NCBI RefSeq assembly: GCF_900119145.1
Contig: NZ_FPIY01000001.1
Span: 992,001 to 1,056,000 of the forward strand
Source: Cellulophaga fucicola
GTDB lineage: Bacteria; Bacteroidota; Bacteroidia; Flavobacteriales; Flavobacteriaceae
Reading direction: 5' to 3'
DNA: 64,000 nucleotides
The position numbers and the translations under genes are program-made. Below, piece after piece: positions 6,386 through 59,971 of the stretch; within the stretch, counting starts at the first letter, position 1, and every line of letters begins with the position of its first letter. Below the pieces are notes generated by a model. The model was given only the letters and a program-made list of their open reading frames with translations, did not search any database and was not told the DNA's origin.

Positions 6386-7615
6386 ATGAAAAACATAGGA
6401 TTACTACTTTTTACCCTGCTAACAACAGTATTTACTAACAATGCGCAAACTATTGAAAAACTAGTAGAAGACAATACTGCCAAATCTTGTAAGTGTATGA
6501 AAAAAATAGATATTGTAACTAGTAAATTAGACTTAGAAAACAAGGTTTATTCTTGTTCTAGACTTAGTAAAAATGACTCTATTGCAATATTAAAAATCAC
6601 CACTTTTAAAGAGTATGAAAAGTTTGTATTATCTAAATTACCTGCAGACTGTGATGGCTTAGAAGCTAAATTAGAACAGTTAAGGCAAAGTTATACTTCT
6701 ACTACTTACACAGACGATACAGAAGAAAAATATGAAAACGTAGAGAAAAAAATAATAGGAAGTTATGATTTATCTTTTGGACACAAATCTCCAGAAGGTA
6801 GTCCAACATTAATACTTTATAATCAAAATGAATATGTTATTGAAACTTTTGATGCATTACAAGTAGGCACTTGGCAAGTTGTAAAAGGGAAATACTTACA
6901 TTTATTTCCTAATAAAAGTAAATCTCCGCTTACGATCTATGGTCGTCACAACCCAAATATAGGGGACTCTACTTATACCTCTTTTTTGGGGGACAGATTT
7001 AGCTATAAAACACTTATTACTTACCAACAAGCAACTAAAAAACCTATAAACTTAAGTCCTATATTTAATAAAGATGCCAATTGTTTTAGTTTTCCGTATA
7101 TACACAAAACTAGCGGTAAACCAGATCAAATATCATTAGCATATAATCAAAATTATGAGGAATTTACAGAGCAAGAAGTAACATTGTACACATTTAAAAA
7201 TTCTAAGAGTTTTAACGACTTCATTATTTTTGAACACACAAGAAATATAAATGGTATGCCAGCTGACATTCTAATTGGTGACAACAAACTGATATTTGAT
7301 GAAGACAGTATAGCCATAAAATATTCTTCTACTGGAGAAAATACCACGGATGATACTAATTCTAGATTTATCTATTACAATACTGGCTATAAAATATTTA
7401 AAAGCGAGCTTATAAACTCTAAGCAATACAGTTATAACAAAAAAGATAATAACTATTTGTATGATAAAAGTTTAGAAACTACTTATGAGCCAGATATAAG
7501 CAATTATCATAATTACTATCAAGTAAATAAATACGAAAAATTACAAGACCTAACTAAGGAACAAAAACGGTTTACAATAGCTGAGAAATCTATTATTTAT
7601 ACCGTTTGTGATTAA
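6386..7615 (+). CDS. secreted protein of unknown function, tandem paralog A
   Basis: A 409-residue protein with an N-terminal signal peptide (cleavage about residue 20, ...TNNAQT). It is clearly paralogous to the next gene along the whole length: both carry a Cys-bearing N-terminal helical part (CKCM, CSRLS, ADCDG here), a shared SFGH.SPEGSPTL block, GDRFSY.TLITY, PIFNKDANCF, DFIIFEHTR and the same C-terminus ending in IYTVCD. The conserved Cys pairs suggest disulfides in the periplasm or outside the cell. I do not recognise the family. A duplicated exported protein in a cluster of cell-wall enzymes could be a self-protection protein, but nothing shows this directly. Confidence 0.65.
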   Translation: MKNIGLLLFTLLTTVFTNNAQTIEKLVEDNTAKSCKCMKKIDIVTSKLDLENKVYSCSRLSKNDSIAILKITTFKEYEKFVLSKLPADCDGLEAKLEQLRQSYTSTTYTDDTEEKYENVEKKIIGSYDLSFGHKSPEGSPTLILYNQNEYVIETFDALQVGTWQVVKGKYLHLFPNKSKSPLTIYGRHNPNIGDSTYTSFLGDRFSYKTLITYQQATKKPINLSPIFNKDANCFSFPYIHKTSGKPDQISLAYNQNYEEFTEQEVTLYTFKNSKSFNDFIIFEHTRNINGMPADILIGDNKLIFDEDSIAIKYSSTGENTTDDTNSRFIYYNTGYKIFKSELINSKQYSYNKKDNNYLYDKSLETTYEPDISNYHNYYQVNKYEKLQDLTKEQKRFTIAEKSIIYTVCD

Positions 7616-7647
7616 GTTAATAATTAAAAAAACATACCAATAAACCG

Positions 7648-8913
7648 ATGAAAGACATAAAATCATTAATTTTTCTCTTATTTACAACTATAGTTACTGG
7701 TAATGCGCAGAGTATTGAAAAAATTGTAAAAGATAAAGCATCTTCTACTTGTGACTGTATAGAAAAAATAGAATACATAGACAGCAAAGCAGATTTTGAA
7801 GTTAAGGTAAAATCTTGTGCAGCACTTAGTGCAAAAGATTCTACCAGAATATTTAAACAAACTACGTTTCACGAGTATGATAAACTTCTACAAGCTAAAT
7901 TATTTGAAGACTGTGATGCTATACAAATTAAATTAGAACAGCTAAGACAAAGCTATAATACAACTAACATGGACTCTTTATACTCAGCAGAAAAAAAGTA
8001 CAAAGAAATAGAGAAAAATATAATGGGGAGTTATAGTTTATCTTTTGGTCATAGATCGCCAGAAGGCAGCCCTACTTTATTTCTTTACAAGGAAAATAAA
8101 TATGTAATTGCTTCTTTTGGTGAAGTACAAATAGGTACTTGGCGCGTTATAAAAGAAAAATATTTACACCTTACACCTAACAAAGCAAAAAAACCTTTTA
8201 ATGTATACGGTCGTTACAATCCTAGTATTGGAGATTCTACCAAAAGCTCTTTTTTAGGTGACAGATTTAGCTATAGAACACTTATTACGTACAATGAAAC
8301 AAGTAAAAAACCAGTAAACCTATTTCCTATTTTTAATAAAGATGCCAATTGTTTTGATTTTCCTTATGTGCATAAAACAACAAGTGTACCTAAGCAAATC
8401 TCCTTAGCGTTTAATCAGTCATATGAGGAGTCTCCAGATCAAAAAGTAATGCTAACCACATTTAAGAACACCAGCAATTTTAATGATTTTATAATTTTTG
8501 AACATACAAGAGATCAAAATAAGATGCCAATTAGAGTTTTAATTGATGGCAACAAATTAATATTTAGAGAAAGCCAAGTAACGGAAAAATCTCCTTTACC
8601 AAAAGCAGGCTCTGAGGACGATACCTTTTTAAAAGAAATGTCTACTATTAATAATACACCTGAAACTATTTATTACAATTTTGGATATAAACAGTTTAAA
8701 AGCGAGGAAATAAACTCTAAAAATTATAAGTATAATAAAAAGCTAAATAATTATGTTTATCGAAGAAAAGTTCCGCCTACCTATGAAAAAAATGTTAGTG
8801 AATATCATAATTTTTTACAAGTAAATAAATATGAAATGTTACAAGATGTAACACAACAACAAAAACAGTTTACAATAGCCAAAAAATCTGTTATCTATAC
8901 GGTTTGTGATTAA
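7648..8913 (+). CDS. secreted protein of unknown function, tandem paralog B
   Basis: A 421-residue secreted protein (signal peptide to about residue 21, ...TGNAQS) that starts 32 nt after its paralog and matches it end to end, with the same Cys positions (CDCI, CAALS, DCDA) and the same final VIYTVCD. The main difference is a loop near residues 310-335 (ESQVTEKS...), several residues longer here, the sort of divergence seen after duplication and drift. Function unknown. It is followed by 105 nt that carry a promoter-like sequence for the next gene. Confidence 0.65.
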   Translation: MKDIKSLIFLLFTTIVTGNAQSIEKIVKDKASSTCDCIEKIEYIDSKADFEVKVKSCAALSAKDSTRIFKQTTFHEYDKLLQAKLFEDCDAIQIKLEQLRQSYNTTNMDSLYSAEKKYKEIEKNIMGSYSLSFGHRSPEGSPTLFLYKENKYVIASFGEVQIGTWRVIKEKYLHLTPNKAKKPFNVYGRYNPSIGDSTKSSFLGDRFSYRTLITYNETSKKPVNLFPIFNKDANCFDFPYVHKTTSVPKQISLAFNQSYEESPDQKVMLTTFKNTSNFNDFIIFEHTRDQNKMPIRVLIDGNKLIFRESQVTEKSPLPKAGSEDDTFLKEMSTINNTPETIYYNFGYKQFKSEEINSKNYKYNKKLNNYVYRRKVPPTYEKNVSEYHNFLQVNKYEMLQDVTQQQKQFTIAKKSVIYTVCD

Positions 8914-50555: not shown

Positions 50556-52979
50556 TTAAAACTTATAGGTAAAGTTTGCCAACAATACTCTTGGTTGTTG
50601 TGGCGTAATGGTTGTCCATCCTTTGTAATACGTTTCATTAAACATATTATTAAGCTTTAACCCTACTCTATATTTATCTGCTTGGTAAAAAACAGATGAA
50701 TTGTAAATGGTGTAGCTAGGCAAGTCAAAAGTTCCCCCAGGACCATAATTAATAATAGAACTTTCACTAGCTCCATTTAATCCAAACCCAACTCCAAAAC
50801 CATCTAAGTTCCCTTCTTGAAACTCATAATTAGTCCAAAGGTTATATAAAGTTTCTGCTCCTGCTTCTATAGGACGTGTTCCTGCTAAAATTGCATTATC
50901 TGTTTTTGTAATTTCACTATCGTTATTACTAAAACCGGCTTTAATATTTAATCCGTTAATAGGGTTTGCATTTATTTCGATCTCTATACCTTTACTTTCT
51001 ACTTCTCCGTCTTGAATTTTATTAAAAGCAGATGTTGGGTCTGTCATTACTTTATCAGACACTGTAATGTCATAATAACTAACCGTTGCATTTAACCTTC
51101 CGTTAAACAAGTTGGTTTTTAATCCAAATTCTAATTGGTTTGCTTGTTCAGCATCAAATGTCTTTAACGTTTGTGGTCCATCTGCAGGATCACCAACTAA
51201 ACTAGGCGCTACGTTTGTAAATCCATTTTGATAATTGGCAAAAACAGATAGTTTATCCAGTATTGGTTGGTATAAAACACCAAACTTAGGAGACAATGTT
51301 GTTTGTGCGTAATCATCTGCATCTGTAGTAATATCACCCTCATTATCAAACCTATCTACACGTAAACTTGCCATTGCAGATAAAGCTGGCGTAATATTTA
51401 AAACATCAGACACATAAGCACTATATGTACTTGTTTCAGATTTAATATTGTTTGCTGTTTGTGATGCCAATACAGACAATACACCTGCTTCTGTTAATGG
51501 GTATGCATCCGTTTCTACATCTGGTGTAAAAGGATTATCGCCATTAGTATCTCCGTTTGGTAATACATTGCCATAAAAAGCAAAACCAGAACCTTGATTT
51601 ATGTTTGTAGCTTGGTAATAATCTAAACCAGCTACTATTCTATTACGTAGCGTACCTAATTTAAAGTCGCCTATAAAATTTTGCTGAATATCAGTTGTAT
51701 ATGTTTTACTGTTTTCTTTACTTATTTGTCTCGTAAAAGTATTCGGATCTAATATTCCGTACTCATATAAGTAAGAGTAATATCCTTTAGATGATGTATT
51801 ACTTTTAGATAATATAGTTTGTGACTGCCAAGCATCAGACAACTTATAATCCATTTCTACTCTGTAGTTAGATGTTGGATTTTCAATTGATAAATCGTTA
51901 GATGTGTAAGACAATTTATTATTATACCCCATTTCTTCAACAGTTGTAGATGCAGATACTGCTGCTCTATTTAAGAACAACGATGTTGCATTTGTTTGTT
52001 CAGCCTCTGAAATTTCAGCATAAAGAGAAAAAGATAATTTATTGTTTACACGATATGATAATGATGGTGCTACAAAAAACGACTTTTTAAAGCCAGCATC
52101 TTGGAAACTATCTTCTGTGTGGTATGCTGTATTTAATCTAAAATAGATATCGTTATTTTTATCTAAAGCAGTATTAAAATCTGCAGAAAGTACAGATAAA
52201 CCATAAGAACCTGCTGTTAAGGATATTTCTCCTCCATATCCTTTGTAAGGCTTTTTAGTTACTGTATTTATTAATCCTCCGTAAGATGTTACAGAGCTTC
52301 CAAATAATGTTGCAGAAGGCCCTTTTATTACCTCTATACGTTCTATATTAGCTGCGTTTATAGTACCGTTTGTTAAACCTGGCATACCATTTACCAACTG
52401 TGGTTGTACACTAAAACCTCTAATACTGTAATATCCAGATCCGTCTCCACCACGCCCTGTAGAACTCCATAATTTATCTACACCAACAGCATTTTTTAAA
52501 GCATCATCAAACTTTGTTGTAATTTGTGACACAAGCAAATCAGATGTTATAGTATTATAAACCTGTGTGTTTTCTAAATCTTTTAAAGGGAGTTTAGCAA
52601 CGTATGCTGTTGACTTTCTAGAAAACTTGTTTACACGTTCGCCATTAACAATTACTTCTTTTAAAATTTCATTTCCCTCATAAAGCTTAATTGTATCTAT
52701 ATTGTTTTCTACATTACCTGCAATTGTAACTACAAGCTCTTTAGTCTTAAAACCAATATAAGATACTTGTAATGTATATGTACCTGCCTCTACATTTTGG
52801 ATACTATATGCTCCATCAAAATCTGTTTGTGATCCCAAACCTGTACCTACTACAGAAATATTTACACCCATTAACGGACTATTGTCTACGTCTGTTACTT
52901 TACCTGTTAGTTTATTATTTTGTGCTTTAGCGCTTACTACGGCTACAAATAACAGTGCTAACGTCATCAAATTTTTCAT
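50556..52979 (-). CDS. TonB-dependent siderophore receptor
   Basis: An 807-residue outer membrane receptor. Signal peptide (to about residue 19, AKAQN), carboxypeptidase-regulatory-like domain (about 22-105; LTGKVTDVDNSPLMGVNI), plug domain (about 135-240; STGRGGDGSGYYSIRGFSVQPQLVNGMPG, RIEVIKGPSATLFGS) and a 22-strand-type barrel ending in ANFTYKF with a terminal Phe. The plug wording and genome context place it in the FhuE/FecA-like siderophore class. It imports Fe(III)-siderophore using TonB energy. The start lies beside two Fur-box-like sequences, so iron-controlled expression is likely. Confidence 0.92.
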   Translation of the reverse strand: MKNLMTLALLFVAVVSAKAQNNKLTGKVTDVDNSPLMGVNISVVGTGLGSQTDFDGAYSIQNVEAGTYTLQVSYIGFKTKELVVTIAGNVENNIDTIKLYEGNEILKEVIVNGERVNKFSRKSTAYVAKLPLKDLENTQVYNTITSDLLVSQITTKFDDALKNAVGVDKLWSSTGRGGDGSGYYSIRGFSVQPQLVNGMPGLTNGTINAANIERIEVIKGPSATLFGSSVTSYGGLINTVTKKPYKGYGGEISLTAGSYGLSVLSADFNTALDKNNDIYFRLNTAYHTEDSFQDAGFKKSFFVAPSLSYRVNNKLSFSLYAEISEAEQTNATSLFLNRAAVSASTTVEEMGYNNKLSYTSNDLSIENPTSNYRVEMDYKLSDAWQSQTILSKSNTSSKGYYSYLYEYGILDPNTFTRQISKENSKTYTTDIQQNFIGDFKLGTLRNRIVAGLDYYQATNINQGSGFAFYGNVLPNGDTNGDNPFTPDVETDAYPLTEAGVLSVLASQTANNIKSETSTYSAYVSDVLNITPALSAMASLRVDRFDNEGDITTDADDYAQTTLSPKFGVLYQPILDKLSVFANYQNGFTNVAPSLVGDPADGPQTLKTFDAEQANQLEFGLKTNLFNGRLNATVSYYDITVSDKVMTDPTSAFNKIQDGEVESKGIEIEINANPINGLNIKAGFSNNDSEITKTDNAILAGTRPIEAGAETLYNLWTNYEFQEGNLDGFGVGFGLNGASESSIINYGPGGTFDLPSYTIYNSSVFYQADKYRVGLKLNNMFNETYYKGWTTITPQQPRVLLANFTYKF

Positions 52980-53108: not shown

Positions 53109-53152
53109 GCAACCTATGTTACATAACTATCACCCTAAAAAACAGAAATTTG
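53109..53152 (+). promoter_or_regulatory. Crp/Fnr-type operator (site A) with -7 box before the regulator gene
   Basis: GCAACCTATGTTAC (53109-53122) matches the GTAAC-N4-GTTAC palindrome with one change. A GAAATTTG -7-like box lies at 53145-53152, its first base 29.5 bp from the palindrome centre, as in sites B and C. This suggests autoregulation. Confidence 0.55.
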
Positions 53153-53202
53153 TAGTCTATTTATATGATGGTTACTAACTATTGTTTAATTTTGATAGTA
53201 CT

Positions 53203-53844
53203 ATGATTCAGGAATTAAAAAACAGCTACGGAACTCTATTTGAAGAAGAATTGCTTCAAGAAATTATAGCATCTGCAACTTATAAAGAGGTTCCAGAAGG
53301 ATTTAAACTTATAGAAATTGGCGATTATGTAAAATCTATGCCATTATTGGTTTCTGGTGCCATAAAAATTTTACGAGAAGACACAGATGGCGATGAGCTA
53401 CTACTCTACTATCTAGAAAAAGGAGAAACTTGCACTATGACAATGGCTTGCTGTATGGGACAAAAGAAAAGTGAAATTAGAGCCATAGCAGAAACAGATA
53501 CTAAGCTAATAATGATTCCTATAGAAAAAATGGAAGTTTGGACTGCCAAATATAAATCTTGGAGAGATTTTGTTTTTGAAAGCTACCATAACAGAATTAA
53601 CGAATTATTGCTAACTGTAGACAGTGTTGCTTTTTTAAATATGGATGAGCGCTTACTTAATTACTTAAAAGAAAAAGTACGAGTAACCAATACTTCTATA
53701 TTAAAAAATACACACCAAGAAATTGCCTATGACCTGCACAGTTCTAGAGTAGTAATATCTAGACTATTAAAAAAATTAGAAAAACTAGGAAGCATAGAAC
53801 TACATAGAAATTATATTAAAATACTAGACTTAAACAAAGTGTAA
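53203..53844 (+). CDS. Crp/Fnr family transcription regulator
   Basis: A 213-residue regulator from the ATG at 53203; a TTG at 53182 would add 7 residues. The cNMP-binding-fold effector domain (about residues 10-120) includes EVPEGFKLIEIGDYVKSMPLLVSGAIKILRED and a Cys-bearing stretch CTMTMACCMGQKKSEIRA (three Cys close together), which could sense a redox or sulfur signal. The C-terminal winged helix (about 145-210) has the recognition helix THQEIAYDLHSSRVVISRLLKKLE. No arginine of a canonical cAMP site is obvious. Its stop codon lies within operator site B, and it is divergent from the siderophore receptor gene. Confidence 0.88.
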   Translation: MIQELKNSYGTLFEEELLQEIIASATYKEVPEGFKLIEIGDYVKSMPLLVSGAIKILREDTDGDELLLYYLEKGETCTMTMACCMGQKKSEIRAIAETDTKLIMIPIEKMEVWTAKYKSWRDFVFESYHNRINELLLTVDSVAFLNMDERLLNYLKEKVRVTNTSILKNTHQEIAYDLHSSRVVISRLLKKLEKLGSIELHRNYIKILDLNKV

Positions 53845-53884
53845 CCTAAGTTACTGTACACTAACATAGTGTAACTTAATTTTG
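53841..53884 (+). promoter_or_regulatory. Crp/Fnr-type operator (site B) with -7 box
   Basis: A perfect-arm palindrome GTAACCTAAGTTAC (53841-53854) overlaps the stop codon of the regulator. A -7 box TAATTTTG lies at 53877-53884, the first base 29.5 bp from the palindrome centre, and the transcript would start about 23 nt before the ATG at 53911. A further half-site GTAAC begins at 53871. Confidence 0.72.
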
Positions 53885-53910
53885 TAGTATTAATACTAAA
53901 CTACAAAGTT

Positions 53911-55317
53911 ATGATTATAGAACAAATATATACAGGTTGCCTTGCACAAGGCGCATACTACATAGAAAGTAATGGCGAAGCTGCTATTATAGATCCTTTA
54001 AGAGAAACTTCGCCTTATATTTCTAGAGCAAAGGAAAATAATGCGACTATAAAATATATTTTTGAAACTCATTTTCACGCAGATTTTGTAAGCGGACACG
54101 TAACATTATCTAAACAAACCAATGCTCCAATTGTTTTTGGGCCAAATGCAAATCCTACTTTTAAAGCTATTATTGCTAAAGATAATCAGGAATTTAAACT
54201 TGGAGAAATTACAATAATAGCACTACATACTCCTGGGCATACAATGGAGAGCACAACTTACCTTTTAAGAGATAAAGAAGGTAAAGACCACGCTATATTT
54301 AGTGGTGACACATTATTCCTAGGAGATGTTGGCAGACCAGATTTAGCACAAAAGGCAGGAAAAATTACAGCTCAAGATTTAGCAGGCTATTTATATAATA
54401 GTTTGCGTACTAAAATTATGCCTTTAGCAGATACTGTTATGGTATATCCTGCACACGGAGCTGGTTCTGCTTGTGGTAAAAACTTAAGTAAAGAAACCGT
54501 AGACACTCTTGGTAACCAAAAGAAAACAAACTACGCCTTACGTGCAAATATGACAAAGGAAGAGTTTATAGAAGAGGTTACTGATGGCTTATTACCGCCA
54601 CCAGAGTACTTTCCTTTAAATGTAAAAATGAACAGAGAAGGTTATGATGATATAGCTGATGTTTTAAAACGAGGAACAGTAGCACTAGATCCCAATATGG
54701 TTGAAACATTAGCAAATACGACTGGTGCAATTGTTTTAGATGTTAGACATCAAGACGACTTTGCAAAAGGACATATTCCTAGATCTATATTTATTGGTAT
54801 AGATGGTAGTTTTGCTCCTTGGGTTGGTGCATTAATTGCAGATGTTAAACAACCAATTATACTTGTAACTCCAGAAGGTAGAGAAGAAGAAACAGTAACT
54901 AGATTATCTAGAGTTGGGTTTGATAATACTTTGGGTGTTTTAAAAGGAGGTTTCTCTGCTTGGAAAAAAGCCGCTAAGGAGTATGATACTGTTAGTACCA
55001 CCACAGTTAAAGACTTAAAAACTATACTAGATAGCAACACAAAAGTTTTTGATGTTAGAAAAGAAAGCGAATACTTATCTGAACACATGATAGGGACTAT
55101 TAATACTCCCTTAGATTATATTAACAACTACATTAAAGAATATCCTACAAATAAAAGCTTTTATGTGCATTGTGCTAGTGGCTACAGAAGTATGGTTGCT
55201 GCATCTATTTTAAAAAGTAGAGGAATACATAATTTAGTTAATATAAATGGCGGATTTGTTGCTATAAAAGAAAGCGGAATACCTGTAAGTAATTACGTTT
55301 GTCCGTCTACGTTATAA
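53911..55317 (+). CDS. cstB: persulfide dioxygenase/sulfurtransferase, CstB-like (MBL fold plus two rhodanese domains)
   Basis: A 468-residue protein. The metallo-beta-lactamase domain (about residues 1-235) has THFHADFVSGH (H54, H56, D58), HTPGHT and SGDTLFLGDVGRPDL, the persulfide dioxygenase (ETHE1-like) pattern. A first rhodanese domain (about 255-350) has TPEGREEE where the active Cys should be, so it is a pseudo-rhodanese. The second (about 360-468) has an intact loop CASGYRS. That three-part design is CstB, which oxidises low-molecular-weight persulfide to thiosulfate or sulfite. Encoded directly after the Crp/Fnr gene and preceded by operator B. Confidence 0.88.
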   Translation: MIIEQIYTGCLAQGAYYIESNGEAAIIDPLRETSPYISRAKENNATIKYIFETHFHADFVSGHVTLSKQTNAPIVFGPNANPTFKAIIAKDNQEFKLGEITIIALHTPGHTMESTTYLLRDKEGKDHAIFSGDTLFLGDVGRPDLAQKAGKITAQDLAGYLYNSLRTKIMPLADTVMVYPAHGAGSACGKNLSKETVDTLGNQKKTNYALRANMTKEEFIEEVTDGLLPPPEYFPLNVKMNREGYDDIADVLKRGTVALDPNMVETLANTTGAIVLDVRHQDDFAKGHIPRSIFIGIDGSFAPWVGALIADVKQPIILVTPEGREEETVTRLSRVGFDNTLGVLKGGFSAWKKAAKEYDTVSTTTVKDLKTILDSNTKVFDVRKESEYLSEHMIGTINTPLDYINNYIKEYPTNKSFYVHCASGYRSMVAASILKSRGIHNLVNINGGFVAIKESGIPVSNYVCPSTL

Positions 55318-55330
55318 AAATTAGTTAGCA

Positions 55331-55364
55331 AAAGGAGTGTTACTAAAAAACACTCCTTTTTTTT
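55331..55364 (+). terminator. intrinsic terminator after the CstB-like gene
   Basis: An 11-bp stem (AAAGGAGTGTT / AACACTCCTTT, 7-nt loop) followed by T8, 13 nt past the stop at 55317. It separates this transcript from cydAB. Confidence 0.9.
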
Positions 55365-55408
55365 AGGACAAAACCATTAGAATTTTATCTAAAACGATAC
55401 TGTTTCGG

Positions 55409-55416
55409 TATCTTTG
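55409..55416 (+). promoter_or_regulatory. -7 box of cydAB
   Basis: TATCTTTG matches TAnnTTTG, 30 nt before the cydA ATG. A short inverted repeat GATAC-N7-GTATC (55396-55412) overlaps it. There is no GTAAC-N4-GTTAC site at the position seen in the neighbouring promoters. Confidence 0.5.
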
Positions 55417-55445
55417 TTAAACACCCTATTCTTAAATATTGTGCT

Positions 55446-56777
55446 ATGGAAGATATGCTCTTTTATGACAGAATGCAGTTTGCATTTACAATTACATTTC
55501 ATTATTTGTTTCCGCAATTAACAATGGGCTTGTCCTTATTAATTGTTTATTTTAAATGGAAATTTTTAAGAACTAAGGAAGACACCTACAATGATGCAGC
55601 TAAGTTTTGGATGAAAATCTTTGCTTTAAACTTTGCTATGGGTGTGGTTACTGGTATTCCTATGGAGTTTCAGTTTGGTACCAATTGGGCAAAGTTTTCT
55701 GAACTCACTGGTGGTATTATTGGTCAGACTTTAGCTATGGAAGGTATGTTCTCTTTCTTTTTGGAGTCGTCCTTTTTAGGCTTGTTTTTATTTGGAGAAA
55801 AACTACTTGGACATAAACTTCATTTTTTAACCGGATTTTTAGTGTTTTTAGGTTCCTGGGCAAGTGGTTATTTAATTATTGCTACGCACTCTTGGATGCA
55901 ACATCCTGTTGGTTACGAAATTCTAGAAAACGGAAAATTTGTTCTTACTAATTTTAGTGCTCTCTTTAGTAATACTTGGCTTCTACCCTCTTATTTTCAT
56001 AACCAAGCAGCTTCTTTAGTCACAGCTTCTTTTGTTGTTGCTGCCATTGGCGCATTTTACATCTTAAATAACAAACACAGTAATTTTGGGAAGTTATTTT
56101 TAAAAACAGGTGTTATTTTTGGCTTTTTTGCTAGCGTTATTGTTGCTGTTCCTACTGGAGATTTAGTTGCAAAAAATGTGGTTAAATACCAACCTGCAAC
56201 TTTTGCTGCTATGGAAGGTATATTTAAAACAGAAGATGGTGGGTCGGAAATAGTACTTATTGGACAGCCTAATATATTAGAACAAAAATTAGACAATAAA
56301 ATTGCCGTTCCAAATATACTTAGTTTTTTAACGTACCAAGATTGGAATGCAGAAATTAAGGGTCTTAACGAGTTTGATAAAAGTGTACACCCTACTAACA
56401 TCCCTGGTTTATATTATGCGTACCATATTATGGTTGGTTTAGGAACAATTTTTATAGGGTTACTACTTTTTGCTGTTGTTCAATTATTCAGAAAAAAACT
56501 ATATACTACAAAATGGATTTTATGGTCGTTGCTTTTTATGCTTCCTTTTCCGTATATAGCAAATACTATGGGTTGGTACACTGCAGAATTAGGCAGACAA
56601 CCTTGGTTAGTTTATAACTTACTACGCACAGCAGAAGGTGCATCACCAACAGTATCATCTGGTAATACATTGTTTACACTACTAGGTTTTATAGGTCTAT
56701 ATCTTTTATTAGGCTTATTATTTTTAATGTTAGCAGGTAAAATAATTAATAAAGGACCAGAACTTAAAAAACACTAA
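55446..56777 (+). CDS. cydA: cytochrome bd ubiquinol oxidase subunit I
   Basis: A 443-residue nine-helix-type membrane protein. Heme ligands and signature residues of CydA are present: H19 (heme b595) in FAFTITFHYLFPQL, E99 in AMEGMFSFFLESSF, H185 in PSYFHNQAAS (heme b558 axial ligand) and the quinol-loop end GRQPWLVYNLLRT. The Q loop is of the short type, since the protein is about 80 residues shorter than E. coli CydA. It oxidises quinol and reduces oxygen with high affinity and tolerates sulfide. cydB follows 2 nt after. Confidence 0.95.
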   Translation: MEDMLFYDRMQFAFTITFHYLFPQLTMGLSLLIVYFKWKFLRTKEDTYNDAAKFWMKIFALNFAMGVVTGIPMEFQFGTNWAKFSELTGGIIGQTLAMEGMFSFFLESSFLGLFLFGEKLLGHKLHFLTGFLVFLGSWASGYLIIATHSWMQHPVGYEILENGKFVLTNFSALFSNTWLLPSYFHNQAASLVTASFVVAAIGAFYILNNKHSNFGKLFLKTGVIFGFFASVIVAVPTGDLVAKNVVKYQPATFAAMEGIFKTEDGGSEIVLIGQPNILEQKLDNKIAVPNILSFLTYQDWNAEIKGLNEFDKSVHPTNIPGLYYAYHIMVGLGTIFIGLLLFAVVQLFRKKLYTTKWILWSLLFMLPFPYIANTMGWYTAELGRQPWLVYNLLRTAEGASPTVSSGNTLFTLLGFIGLYLLLGLLFLMLAGKIINKGPELKKH

Positions 56778-56779
56778 TT

Positions 56780-57856
56780 ATGGAGCTTTTTTGGTATATC
56801 GTTTTAATGACAATGTTAACCATCTACGTTATCCTAGACGGATACGATTTTGGTGCAGGAATTATACATTTATTTTTCGCTAAAAAAGAGAAAGATAAAA
56901 AGGCAATTACTAATGCTATTGGTCCGTTTTGGGATGCAAACGAGGTATGGCTTATTGCTGTAGGTGGCGTATTATTTTTTGCATTCCCTACACTTTACGC
57001 ATCATCATTTAGTGGCTTTTATTTGCCCTTAATTATTATTTTATGGTTGTTAATTTTTAGAGCTATTGGGTTAGAGTTAAGAGGACAAATAAACAATACA
57101 TTATGGCATACCATTTGGGACAAAGCTTTTGGTATTGCTAGCTTATTATTAGCATTATTTTTTGGCGTAGCACTTGGTAATGTAGTAAGAGGCGTAAATC
57201 TTGGTAATGTTGTAGACGGTGTATCTACACACGAGGGGCACTATTTCTTTTTACCATTATGGAATACAACATTTAGTCCGCAAGCAGAAGAGCTAGGCAT
57301 TATAGATTGGTTTACGCTTTTATTAGGTATTATTGGAGTTGTGTCTTTAGCAATACACGGAGCAAATTGGATTATATTTAAAACTAATTCTGACTTAAAT
57401 ACAAAACTGAGAAAGGTTATTTTTAACCTTAATTTTGTGCTATTAGCATTAGTTGCTGTTTCTATTCTTGTATGGCACGTAATAGAACCTAAGCCTTTTC
57501 ATAATTTTATAGACAAACCTTGGTTATGGATTTTTCCTATTCTAACCTTTACGGGTCTTTTTGGGTTATTTAAAGTAAAATCATTTAAAAAAGATGGTAT
57601 CGGATTTATATTTTCGTCGCTATTCCTTTTTGGCGGTATAACAACCACAGTGGCATCAATTTTTCCAAAGGTATTACCATCAACAAATACAATAAACCCC
57701 TCTTTAACACTTTACAATACAGCAGCAGATAGTTATGGGCTGGGTGTTGGTGTGTATTGGTTTGCCATAGCTGCTGTACTAGTTGCTGTATATATGTTTA
57801 TACAATACAAAGTCTTTAAAGGGAAAATGGATGATATTGGCTACGGAGATCATTAA
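56780..57856 (+). CDS. cydB: cytochrome bd ubiquinol oxidase subunit II
   Basis: A 358-residue protein starting 2 nt after cydA. It has the CydB opening FWYIVLMTMLTIYVILDGYDFGAGIIHLF, the GPFWDANEVWLIAVGG motif and about eight membrane helices, and ends with a short soluble tail. CydB supports the heme centres in CydA. No CydX-like small gene follows: its stop overlaps that of the convergent hydrolase-like gene by 2 nt. Confidence 0.95.
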   Translation: MELFWYIVLMTMLTIYVILDGYDFGAGIIHLFFAKKEKDKKAITNAIGPFWDANEVWLIAVGGVLFFAFPTLYASSFSGFYLPLIIILWLLIFRAIGLELRGQINNTLWHTIWDKAFGIASLLLALFFGVALGNVVRGVNLGNVVDGVSTHEGHYFFLPLWNTTFSPQAEELGIIDWFTLLLGIIGVVSLAIHGANWIIFKTNSDLNTKLRKVIFNLNFVLLALVAVSILVWHVIEPKPFHNFIDKPWLWIFPILTFTGLFGLFKVKSFKKDGIGFIFSSLFLFGGITTTVASIFPKVLPSTNTINPSLTLYNTAADSYGLGVGVYWFAIAAVLVAVYMFIQYKVFKGKMDDIGYGDH

Positions 57857-58851
57857 TTACCTTTAAGACGTTGCCATAATTCTCCTAGCATTTTTTTAGC
57901 TTGGATTCTATTTTTTGGTTTTTCATAAAAAGCAATATCACCATTACCATATGTTTTTATTTCATAGCTAAAAACAAAATCACTAGCATTATAAGCTAAA
58001 CTTAATGTTCCAAAACGCAAATCGTTATAATAAATAGTACCGTTGTAGCTATCTATAGTATACCATCCTTTACTAATTGCAATCATCCGTTGCATTTTAG
58101 GATTGTCTTTTAAATCATCAACTAAAATATGATTTTTATAGTATTTTGAAAATCGAATTGGCTGTGTATCAAAAAACGAATAATGTCCTATATAATAAGC
58201 ATCATCAGTCTCTACATTAGCTGTCCATAATATGGTGTTTAAAGGAGACGGCTTAGTTTCAATCTCTGTGTATGCTATATTTTGTTCTTCTAATTGTTTT
58301 TTAAATTGATAAAAAGCTGCACCTTTTAAAACAAAGGTTAATAGTAAATAACTACTACTTATTATTAAACCAAGTCTATTGTATTTTTTACGTTTTAGAC
58401 TTTCTTTTTTCTGAAACATTGTTAGAATTAAAAACACCAAAAAAGGAACTGTATATAACGGATCTATTACAAAAATGGTTTTAAATGCCAGTCGGTTTTC
58501 TAATGGCCAAAACAATTGTGTTCCCCAAGTTGTATGCGCATCTAAAATAGGGTGTGTTACAAATGCTAAGAAGAAAAGCCAGCACCAACCTTTAAAATCT
58601 TTGTATTTCTCGTACCTAGTAACTAACCAAGTAAAAATAGGAGCAAATAAAACAGAGAATAAAACAGAATGTGTAAAACCACGGTGCATTTCTAGCCCGG
58701 TAACCGTATCTGTAAAAAAAGAAACAAAAGTATCTAAGTCCGGAATTGTACCAGCTATAGCACCATAAAGCATTGCTTTATTTCCTATTTTTTTTCCTAA
58801 AACGGCTTCGCCAACAGCGGCACCTAATACAATTTGTGTTAAAGAATCCAT
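57853..58851 (-). CDS. membrane-bound metal-dependent hydrolase family (YdjM/DUF457-like)
   Basis: A 332-residue protein whose first 170 residues have about four membrane segments and the family motifs MDSLTQIVLGAAVGEAVLGKK, TIPDLDTF, MHRGFTHSVLF, THPILDAHTTWGTQLFWP. The HRGFTHS and DAHT motifs carry the His and Asp residues thought to bind a metal. The C-terminal half is a soluble beta-rich domain of unknown fold. The E. coli relatives (YdjM) are LexA-linked, but the biochemical role is unknown. It lies convergent to cydB, sharing 2 nt of stop codons, and starts 145 nt from the YeeE pair. Confidence 0.82.
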   Translation of the reverse strand: MDSLTQIVLGAAVGEAVLGKKIGNKAMLYGAIAGTIPDLDTFVSFFTDTVTGLEMHRGFTHSVLFSVLFAPIFTWLVTRYEKYKDFKGWCWLFFLAFVTHPILDAHTTWGTQLFWPLENRLAFKTIFVIDPLYTVPFLVFLILTMFQKKESLKRKKYNRLGLIISSSYLLLTFVLKGAAFYQFKKQLEEQNIAYTEIETKPSPLNTILWTANVETDDAYYIGHYSFFDTQPIRFSKYYKNHILVDDLKDNPKMQRMIAISKGWYTIDSYNGTIYYNDLRFGTLSLAYNASDFVFSYEIKTYGNGDIAFYEKPKNRIQAKKMLGELWQRLKGN

Positions 58852-58924
58852 ACTATAATTTAAAGAATGGTAAATCTAAACAATTAAACTTGTTTGTATA
58901 TAAAATATATAATCTACGGTCTTT

Positions 58925-58969
58925 AGTAACCTAGGTTACTTACAATACCAATTAAAAGAATTTACTTTG
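58925..58969 (+). promoter_or_regulatory. Crp/Fnr-type operator (site C) with -7 box
   Basis: A 16-bp perfect palindrome AGTAACCTAGGTTACT (58925-58940), core GTAACCTAGGTTAC centred at 58932.5. A TTACTTTG -7-like box lies at 58962-58969, its first base 29.5 bp from the centre, and the ATG at 58996 follows with a leader of about 23 nt. Same geometry as sites A and B. Confidence 0.72.
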
Positions 58970-58995: not shown

Positions 58996-59553
58996 ATGAA
59001 CGCAATAATGCAACCTTGGCCTTGGTATGTTTCTGGCCCGCTAATTTCCTTAGTCTTATTTTTATTGCTTTGGGTTGGCAAAAATTTTGGAATGTCTTCT
59101 AACCTTAGAACATTATGTACTATTTGTGGTGCAGATAAAACATCTGACTTTTTTAAGTTTGATTGGAAAGCACAACGATGGAATTTAGTGGTTGTTCTAG
59201 GTGCCATTATTGGTGGTTTTATAGCTTCTACCTTTTTAACAGATACTGCAGTAGTGAATATAAACCCTGAAACTGTAAAAGATTTAAAAGAACTAGGTTT
59301 CTCTAGTGCTGGTAATGCGTATTTACCAACAGAACTATATAGTTTAGATGCGTTAACAGATATTAAAAGTGTACTAATTTTAGCTATTGGCGGACTTCTA
59401 GTGGGTTTTGGAACTAGATATGCTGGCGGTTGTACTTCTGGACACGCAATATCTGGACTAAGCAACTTACAGTTGCCATCTTTAATAGCTGTAATTGGCT
59501 TTTTCATTGGCGGTTTAATTATGATTCACCTACTATTCCCTTTAATTTTTTAA
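58996..59553 (+). CDS. YeeE/YedE family sulfur transporter, first half
   Basis: A 185-residue membrane protein with about four to five helices and the family's Cys motif RYAGGCTSGHAISG (about residues 138-151). YeeE/TsuA proteins in other bacteria import thiosulfate through a chain of Cys residues. Here the transporter is split into two small genes: this one and the next, 4 nt downstream, each with one GxC motif. Its promoter has the same operator as the CstB-like gene, so the two are probably co-regulated; the pair may move thiosulfate or persulfide sulfur. Confidence 0.85.
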   Translation: MNAIMQPWPWYVSGPLISLVLFLLLWVGKNFGMSSNLRTLCTICGADKTSDFFKFDWKAQRWNLVVVLGAIIGGFIASTFLTDTAVVNINPETVKDLKELGFSSAGNAYLPTELYSLDALTDIKSVLILAIGGLLVGFGTRYAGGCTSGHAISGLSNLQLPSLIAVIGFFIGGLIMIHLLFPLIF

Positions 59554-59557
59554 GACT

Positions 59558-59971
59558 ATGAGAACCCTATTATATTTACTTATCGGAATTTTCTTTGGTA
59601 TTACAATGTTTAAATCAGAAGCAGCATCGTGGTTTCGTATATACGAAATGTTTCAATTTCAGTCTTTTCATATGTACGGCATAATGGGCTCTGCTCTTGC
59701 TATAGGCATTGTTGTAGTACAATTAATTAAGCGCTATAAACTAAAATCTATTTACGGCGAAAGAATACAGTTTATTCCTAAAAACAAAAGTATTAGCAGG
59801 TACTTAATTGGTGGTATTATTTTTGGTTTAGGTTGGGCTCTTGCAGGTGCTTGTCCCGGTCCTATGTTTACATTAGTAGGCGCTGGCTTTGCTCCTATTT
59901 TAATTGTAATTGTTTTTTCTGTACTAGGAACATTTTTATACGGTGTTTTAAAAGATAAATTACCCCATTAA
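59558..59971 (+). CDS. YeeE/YedE family sulfur transporter, second half (DUF6691-like)
   Basis: A 137-residue membrane protein with about four helices and the second family motif LAGACPGPMFTLVGAGF (about residues 103-119), containing the conserved Cys. It starts 4 nt after the first half, so the two are co-translated subunits of one transporter. The MFKSEAASWFRIYEMFQFQSFHMYG stretch is typical of this small partner. It ends before a bidirectional terminator. Confidence 0.85.
   Translation: MRTLLYLLIGIFFGITMFKSEAASWFRIYEMFQFQSFHMYGIMGSALAIGIVVVQLIKRYKLKSIYGERIQFIPKNKSISRYLIGGIIFGLGWALAGACPGPMFTLVGAGFAPILIVIVFSVLGTFLYGVLKDKLPH

Follow-up and report, generated by a model that had tools for sequence, protein, structure and literature searches.

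A putative Crp/Fnr-type regulator with conserved cysteines and a fixed-distance palindrome at sulfur-detoxification genes in Cellulophaga fucicola and its relatives

The described regulators of sulfide and persulfide, CstR, SqrR/BigR and FisR, are members of the CsoR, ArsR and sigma-54 activator families, and none in the accounts of PMC9774590 and PMC7315123 is a Crp/Fnr protein. These regulators control genes for sulfide:quinone reductase (SQR), persulfide dioxygenase and TauE as well as yeeE-yedE-pdo2 genes, and CstR, SqrR and the FisR of Cupriavidus use two or three cysteines (PMC9774590, PMC7315123). The cysteine pairs or triads of the known sulfur sensors form di- to tetrasulfides (PMC9774590). 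Persulfidation was also detected in a Crp-type protein, Crp of Acinetobacter baumannii, and suggested to control its activity, but this protein is a catabolite regulator and is not described in the account of PMC7315123 as a regulator of sulfur genes. A literature search by titles and starts of abstracts found no Crp/Fnr sulfur regulator of Bacteroidota. Here, a 64,000-nt stretch of Cellulophaga fucicola DNA (the window) was analyzed, and the whole genome (3.92 Mb) and loci of relatives were searched. The gene at 53203-53844 of the window encodes a Crp/Fnr-type regulator with three conserved cysteines, which very probably controls sulfur-clearing genes through a palindrome, GTAAC-N4-GTTAC, at a fixed distance from the promoter box, in a wiring that recurs in many relatives.

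The locus resembles the CstR, SqrR/BigR and FisR systems in its predicted target genes and in its conserved cysteines, but its cysteines lie at the nucleotide cassette of a Crp/Fnr protein. Its DNA site has counterparts within the Crp/Fnr family. The GTAN8TAC sites of NtcA are located around -41.5 (PMC3898017), and NtcA also has Val in the alignment at the position of CRP Glu181. However, NtcA serves nitrogen control by 2-oxoglutarate, and an NtcA identity was rejected with a score of 44.9 bits against the NtcA equivalog cut-off of 244.95. For HcpR2, another member of the Crp/Fnr family, the same motif, GTAACnnnnGTTAC, has been published from a set of genomes to which most Bacteroides, clostridia and Thermotogales belong (PMC1274295), and this consensus fits the operators described here. 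Because HcpR2 has the same motif, the palindrome alone cannot identify the regulator.

The regulator gene and the two supported targets in the window comprise the following features.

53203-53844, plus strand: Crp/Fnr-type regulator, 213 residues, with Pfam domains cNMP_binding and HTH_Crp_2
53431-53454, plus strand: codons of C77, C83 and C84, a C-x5-CC motif at the cyclic-nucleotide phosphate-binding cassette, from the alignment of homologs
53749-53751, plus strand: codon of recognition-helix residue Val183, at the position of CRP Glu181; the residue here covaries with the operator
53841-53854, plus strand: operator GTAACCTAAGTTAC before the persulfide dioxygenase gene, overlapping the stop codon of the regulator gene
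53877-53884, plus strand: -7 box TAATTTTG of the persulfide dioxygenase promoter, exactly 22 nt past the operator
53911-55317, plus strand: persulfide dioxygenase with rhodanese domains (Pfam Lactamase_B and Rhodanese), which we take to be CstB-like
58926-58939, plus strand: operator GTAACCTAGGTTAC before the YeeE/YedE pair
58962-58969, plus strand: -7 box TTACTTTG of the YeeE promoter, 22 nt past the operator
58996-59553, plus strand: YeeE/YedE-type sulfur transport protein, part 1 (Pfam Sulf_transp; weak TsuA match below the cut-off)
59558-59971, plus strand: YeeE/YedE-type sulfur transport protein, part 2 (DUF6691; Pfam DUF6691 and Sulf_transp)

The regulator is likely to bind GTAAC-N4-GTTAC and to activate sulfur-detoxification promoters as a class II Crp/Fnr dimer. 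In the proposed mechanism, the dimeric product of the regulator gene would bind the palindrome centered at -41.5, adjoining a -33 element, and would recruit RNA polymerase at these promoters. C77 and C83, with C84, would sense sulfide-derived sulfane sulfur at the place where CRP binds cAMP.

The operator was compared among 64 loci from one genome scan, each of which contains the regulator gene and up to 8 kb on each side (1.01 Mb in total). GTAAC-N4-GTTAC occurs 173 times in these loci, compared with an average of 0.8 and a maximum of 9 for 59 other half-sites of the same letters. This number is for a spacer of 4; any other spacer of 0-12 gives at most 5 occurrences. A gap of 22 accounts for 74 exact TAnnTTTG boxes, and no other gap of 0-49 has more than one. 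With up to one mismatch, the box lies at gap 22 in 165 of the 173 palindromes, two of which have it on both sides, yielding 167 oriented sites. At least one perfect palindrome is present in 61 of the 64 regulator loci (31 of 32 by genus label, with nine loci that lack such a label counted by record title). The T beside the left arm, at position -1 of the palindrome, reaches 93%, and the box is also strongly conserved, whereas conservation is weak or absent in the central four bases and in the segment that separates the operator from the box. This contrast indicates that selection acts on the site. Directly past the right arm, T at -34 (65%) and G at -33 (64%) prevail, as if the site adjoined a -33 element.

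Both supported operators of the window are conserved locally. All eight aligned loci (about five distinct sequences) retain the operator at 53841, together with a TAnnTTTG box at the position of 53877, and many relatives have sites at roughly the same place after the regulator gene. This site also has zero mismatches to the operator plus box in the whole-genome search. The operator at 58926 is kept in all three aligned loci (L036, L037 and L096), which share with the window a T as the second base of the YeeE box.

The genes that follow the operators mostly belong to sulfur detoxification. A total of 255 sites from the 64 loci, the window and stretches of other genomes were traced to the longest reading frame starting nearby, and 238 had one. 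Under a strict rule applied to the 64 loci, 159 of the 167 oriented sites lead to 14 named clusters and eight fall outside. The predicted targets are persulfide dioxygenase (46 sites), TauE/SafE (32), DUF983 (19), SQR-like proteins (15), SulP (11), the regulator itself (8), YeeE (7), 1-Cys peroxiredoxin (7), fatty acid hydroxylase (4), CydA of cytochrome bd (3), Tll0287-like (3) and YgaP-like (2) proteins, a SorA-like sulfite dehydrogenase (1) and an outer-membrane efflux protein (1). Single examples were checked, for ten clusters by Pfam and for four by NCBIfam; the SQR and SorA names are approximate because their scores fall under the model cut-offs. These families bear out the sulfur-related regulon proposed in the initial annotation.

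In C. fucicola, the persulfide dioxygenase gene and the YeeE/YedE pair are supported as targets, and a gene of the fatty acid hydroxylase family elsewhere in the genome is probably a third. The genome contains five perfect palindromes, compared with two for a reversed-pattern control. Of these five, two (L001 and L005) fall within open reading frames, two correspond to 53841 and 58926, and the last, at C8:903872 (L002), lies upstream of a gene grouped with fatty-acid-hydroxylase-family proteins, a name taken from Pfam on the L052 member of the same cluster. The box of this site has two mismatches, and a like site is present in G003 and G015.

The assignment of the regulator to the operator is strong on comparative grounds. 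Operator-plus-box matches with up to one mismatch were counted in 60 genomes against the bit score of the regulator. The 28 genomes with at least 250 bits have a mean of 7.6 sites compared with 1.8 for the control, and values of 0.55 versus 1.55 and 0.33 versus 0.67 were obtained for the 11 genomes with 30-190 bits and the nine genomes without a regulator match, respectively. The operator also changes with the protein. The position of CRP Glu181 is Val in 106 and Glu in 59 of 165 regulators. Among 100 distant loci, the Val group has 17 GTAAC palindromes with a box at gap 22, in 16 loci; the Glu group has four GTGAC, three GTGAT and no GTAAC palindromes with such a box. With one mismatch allowed, 18 of the 41 Val loci contain a GTAAC-type site, compared with 3 of the 59 Glu loci (Fisher p 6e-6), and GTGAC-type sites are found in 0 of 41 Val and 8 of 59 Glu loci (p 0.02), although the loci are not independent.

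In a tree of 112 rows (100 distant loci, 11 of the 64 near loci and the window) built with the helix columns left out, Val and Glu interchanged at least six times, and four of these changes are forced by supported branches. Of the 25 Val rows among the 37 scored, 24 carry exclusively GTAAC, whereas every site in the 12 Glu rows includes a GTGAC arm. The C. fucicola genome yielded six other HTH_Crp_2 matches, five with Glu near the position of CRP Glu181 and one that is not a Crp protein, and none has Val there. The neighboring Crp/Fnr gene, which the initial annotation had named as the regulator, is thus favored by the dependence of site number on regulator score, by the Val/Glu covariation and by the lack of another Val-bearing match. 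A correlation between residue 181 and the contacted base was described earlier for other family members (PMC1274295). The pairing of Val and Glu with GTAAC and GTGAC is a new natural instance of it.

The two domains and the predicted fold of the protein place it in the Crp/Fnr superfamily. Its AlphaFold2 model has a mean pLDDT of 87.4, and the best fold matches in the PDB are 3dv8, NtcA and CAP. The entry 3dv8 (EUBREC_1222, a Crp/Fnr protein of Eubacterium rectale) is the best match in both sequence and fold and keeps C77 and C83 as C-x5-C, but it has no CC pair and has Glu at the specificity position; its title gives no function. The regulator was aligned to CRP, whose residues are given in what we take to be the CRP numbering. 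In this alignment, the cysteines flank and enter the phosphate-binding cassette, and T78, M79 and K89 stand where CRP has Gly71, Glu72 and Arg82. CRP uses these three residues for cAMP (PMC4868304), and cAMP binding by the regulator is unlikely because they are replaced. A cAMP-CRP identity was rejected on the same replacements and on a score of 54.2 of 266 bits in model NF008732.

Among near homologs, C77 is present in 95 of 95, C83 in 93 and C84 in 92. When distant homologs are included, C77 is kept in 165 of 165, C83 in 158 and C84 in 125, so that the C77-C83 pair has the conservation expected of thiol-based persulfide sensors. We infer that C77 and C83, with C84, may sense sulfide or persulfide, a role that fits these conserved cysteines.

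Several observations weigh against the proposed regulator and regulon. C84 is often replaced in homologs, as is C83 in seven of them, and not all three cysteines can therefore be essential. No perfect palindrome occurs in three Formosa loci of the 64, which have one-mismatch sites. The 12 genomes with regulator scores of 190-250 bits show a small excess of sites (2.5 versus 2.08 for the control). Many sites of Glu loci are mixed, with one GTGAC and one GTAAC arm; in the stretches fetched, GTAAC-type sites are missing from 23 of 41 distant Val loci and GTGAC-type sites from 51 of 59 Glu loci, and a GTGAC-type site also occurs in 2 of the 64 near Val loci. In the 112-row tree, three Val rows with both kinds of site were dropped and 72 rows have no site, the Val row L087 has mixed sites only, and an independent-pairs test, in which all three pairs agree in most pairings, gives p 0.25, with too few pairs for significance. 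A search of the C. fucicola genome, made without a positive control, yielded no close SQR or TauE of the relatives' kinds, and its regulon therefore looks reduced.

The last contrary point concerns the promoter of the regulator gene itself. The initial annotation had described three identical operators in the window, the third of which would make the regulator autoregulatory. The coordinates of the three 14-mers (53109, 53841 and 58926) and the distance of 29.5 bp from palindrome center to first box base were reproduced at each, and the site at 58926 extends to a perfect 16-mer (58925-58940), as had been claimed. However, the site at 53109 has a mismatch in the left arm, and the central four bases differ among the three sites. 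TAnnTTTG-like boxes are present at 53877 and 58962, but the box assigned to the third site lacks the TA. The leaders, put at about 23 nt, measure 22 nt for both supported targets. Two elements lie upstream of the regulator gene.

53109-53122, plus strand: claimed third operator GCAACCTATGTTAC, unsupported, with its proposed box GAAATTTG at 53145
53187-53194, plus strand: likelier -7 box of the regulator gene, TAATTTTG, 8 nt before the ATG, with TAnnTTTG kept in relatives

The palindrome at 53109 was not found upstream of the regulator in L036 and L007, both with a 98% identical regulator, nor in L037 and L008-L010, and autoregulation in C. fucicola was rejected on this lack of conservation. 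In the same loci, a TAnnTTTG box is kept just before the regulator ATG, and L011 and L096 have TAATTTTC there. The box at 53187-53194 is more likely to be the promoter box of the regulator than that at 53145. By a looser rule, a site precedes the regulator in 13 of the 64 relative loci.

Four alternatives to the proposed sulfane-sulfur-responsive activator were considered. In the first, regulator and regulon are unchanged, but the cysteines would bind a metal, an iron-sulfur cluster or a haem ligand, and the protein would respond to redox, oxygen or sulfite instead of persulfide. The conserved C77 could ligate a metal with C83 and C84, and residues 80-86 are the sole segment of the ligand-free AlphaFold2 model with a pLDDT below 50, so that the cysteine loop is of low confidence. 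Genes for sulfite export, sulfite dehydrogenase-like proteins and cytochrome bd are moreover among the targets. Against these points stand the commonest target, the dioxygenase, and the fourth commonest, SQR-like proteins, and the replacement of C84 often and of C83 sometimes. C77, C83 and C84 are the only cysteines of the protein, and no FNR-type N-terminal cysteine ligands are present, on which an FNR (iron-sulfur) identity was rejected. A metal- or haem-based signal is possible but on balance doubtful.

The second alternative concerns the direction of control. The -7 box of Flavobacterium psychrophilum spans -12 to -5 (PMC9723704), which, with the gap of 22, places the operator center at -41.5, in line with the value of about -41 in the initial annotation. 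The class II position of Crp-type activators thus appears to be occupied in 165 of the 173 palindromes. Comparison among genomes establishes the operator, its spacing, the targets and the link to the regulator, and class II activation is deduced from operator position. Since repressors, too, bind in the -33 region next to the site, and activation is judged from position, the regulator could repress or another protein could occupy the site. Repressors tolerate variable operator positions, whereas class II Crp-type activators need a fixed one; the single fixed center therefore speaks for activation, and the Val/Glu covariation ties the regulator to the site. Repression or occupation by another protein is improbable.

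In the third alternative, the regulator is of the HcpR2 type, senses nitric oxide or nitrosative stress and binds the known HcpR2 site. The published motif is identical, cytochrome bd is among the relatives' targets, and four of seven hcp loci examined in the order and class have a palindrome with the same box spacing, perfect in L262 (360) and L263 (3181) and with one mismatch in L261 (3202) and L264 (3220). These four sites precede hcp or its neighbor, and no palindrome was found in the hcp loci L259, L260 and L265. However, HcpR2 has Pro at the Glu181 position, or Ser or Gln in three species (PMC1274295), whereas Val or Glu is found here in 165 of 165 regulators. The Crp-type regulator of L264 (3261-3878), divergent to hcp, carries the helix sequence ARPSLAR and lacks C-x5-C, in contrast to the C-x5-CC of the present regulator, and the targets here are sulfur genes instead of hcp. 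Indeed, hcp (PF03063) is absent from the C. fucicola genome and from 36 other sampled genomes of its genus or family, is present in 2 of 60 relatives and exceeds the cut-off in 5 of 295 class genomes, and no Hcp cluster occurs among the operator targets. The HcpR2 identity was rejected on the helix residue, the targets and the absence of hcp, and an HcpR2-type role is very improbable.

Finally, chance matches with forced spacing have a negligible probability: the window alone is not significant (five matches with up to one mismatch versus 2.40 expected, with five reached in 12 of 100 shuffles) and the site at 53109 is not conserved, but the conservation of 53841 and 58926 in relatives refutes this explanation for these two. 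The initial statement that the arrangement is unlikely by chance consequently fails on window statistics and stands for 53841 and 58926 on comparative data, through which chance had to be excluded.

In some relatives, the operator is not followed by a long reading frame but by an element of about 80-125 nt in which TTGGTTGGTTG, or a variant of it, is combined with a terminator hairpin. Sixteen loci were aligned, including the following.

L013, 2187-2280: leader element
L045, 12870-12991: leader element
L066, 12678-12780: leader element
13 further aligned loci: leader element

A 9-pair stem is paired in 144 of 144 cells of this alignment, compared with at most 71% for slid versions of the stem, and both sides change in 6 of the 9 pairs. 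The rows were chosen partly for the terminator, so that the paired share leans upward, but the two-sided changes do not follow from this choice alone. A small rhodanese-like frame with a DVRT motif comes next in 13 of the 16 loci (Pfam on two). No Rfam family reached the gathering score in the five loci searched, and TTGGTTGGTTG was not found in the window. We interpret the element as a terminator-bearing leader driven by the operator, or as a short RNA.

A different arrangement is seen in the Tenacibaculum metagenome-assembled genome L094, where four tandem units of about 150 bp precede the regulator (7146-7716), each with an operator, a box and a terminator-like hairpin. Three of the four have a C run, in a version that differs from the TTGGTTGGTTG leader, and no frame of at least 60 residues follows the first three units. 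These units are candidate small RNAs under the same operator.

Neighboring genes were also inspected. The cytochrome bd genes lie between the two supported targets.

55446-57856, plus strand: cydAB (cytochrome bd; Pfam), a neighbor whose CydA is a target in relatives

No site with up to one mismatch was found before cydAB in the window, and cydAB was rejected as a target in C. fucicola, whereas some relatives have such a site. The DUF983 site of the relative G003 was not found in the C. fucicola genome at up to three mismatches. A DUF983 gene with an operator occurs in 21 of the 64 loci by the looser rule, and in L042 (7546) the DUF983 gene ends where the regulator begins. A gene for a TonB-dependent siderophore receptor (50556-52979 of the window) is divergent from the regulator gene and is also found beside the regulator in L008-L010, L037 and L096.

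The chances are evenly balanced that the regulator represents a new sensor class, a Crp/Fnr activator in which the nucleotide cassette has been turned into a C-x5-C(C) sulfane-sulfur switch, with a regulon across much of Bacteroidia, an operator shift between GTAAC and GTGAC that accompanies repeated Val/Glu changes, and a terminator-bearing leader RNA before a rhodanese gene in relatives. If this is true, sulfur stress in a large group of marine bacteria would be met by a predictable switch whose operator can be read, and the Val/Glu change would provide a natural series on the joint change of a Crp-type protein and its DNA site.

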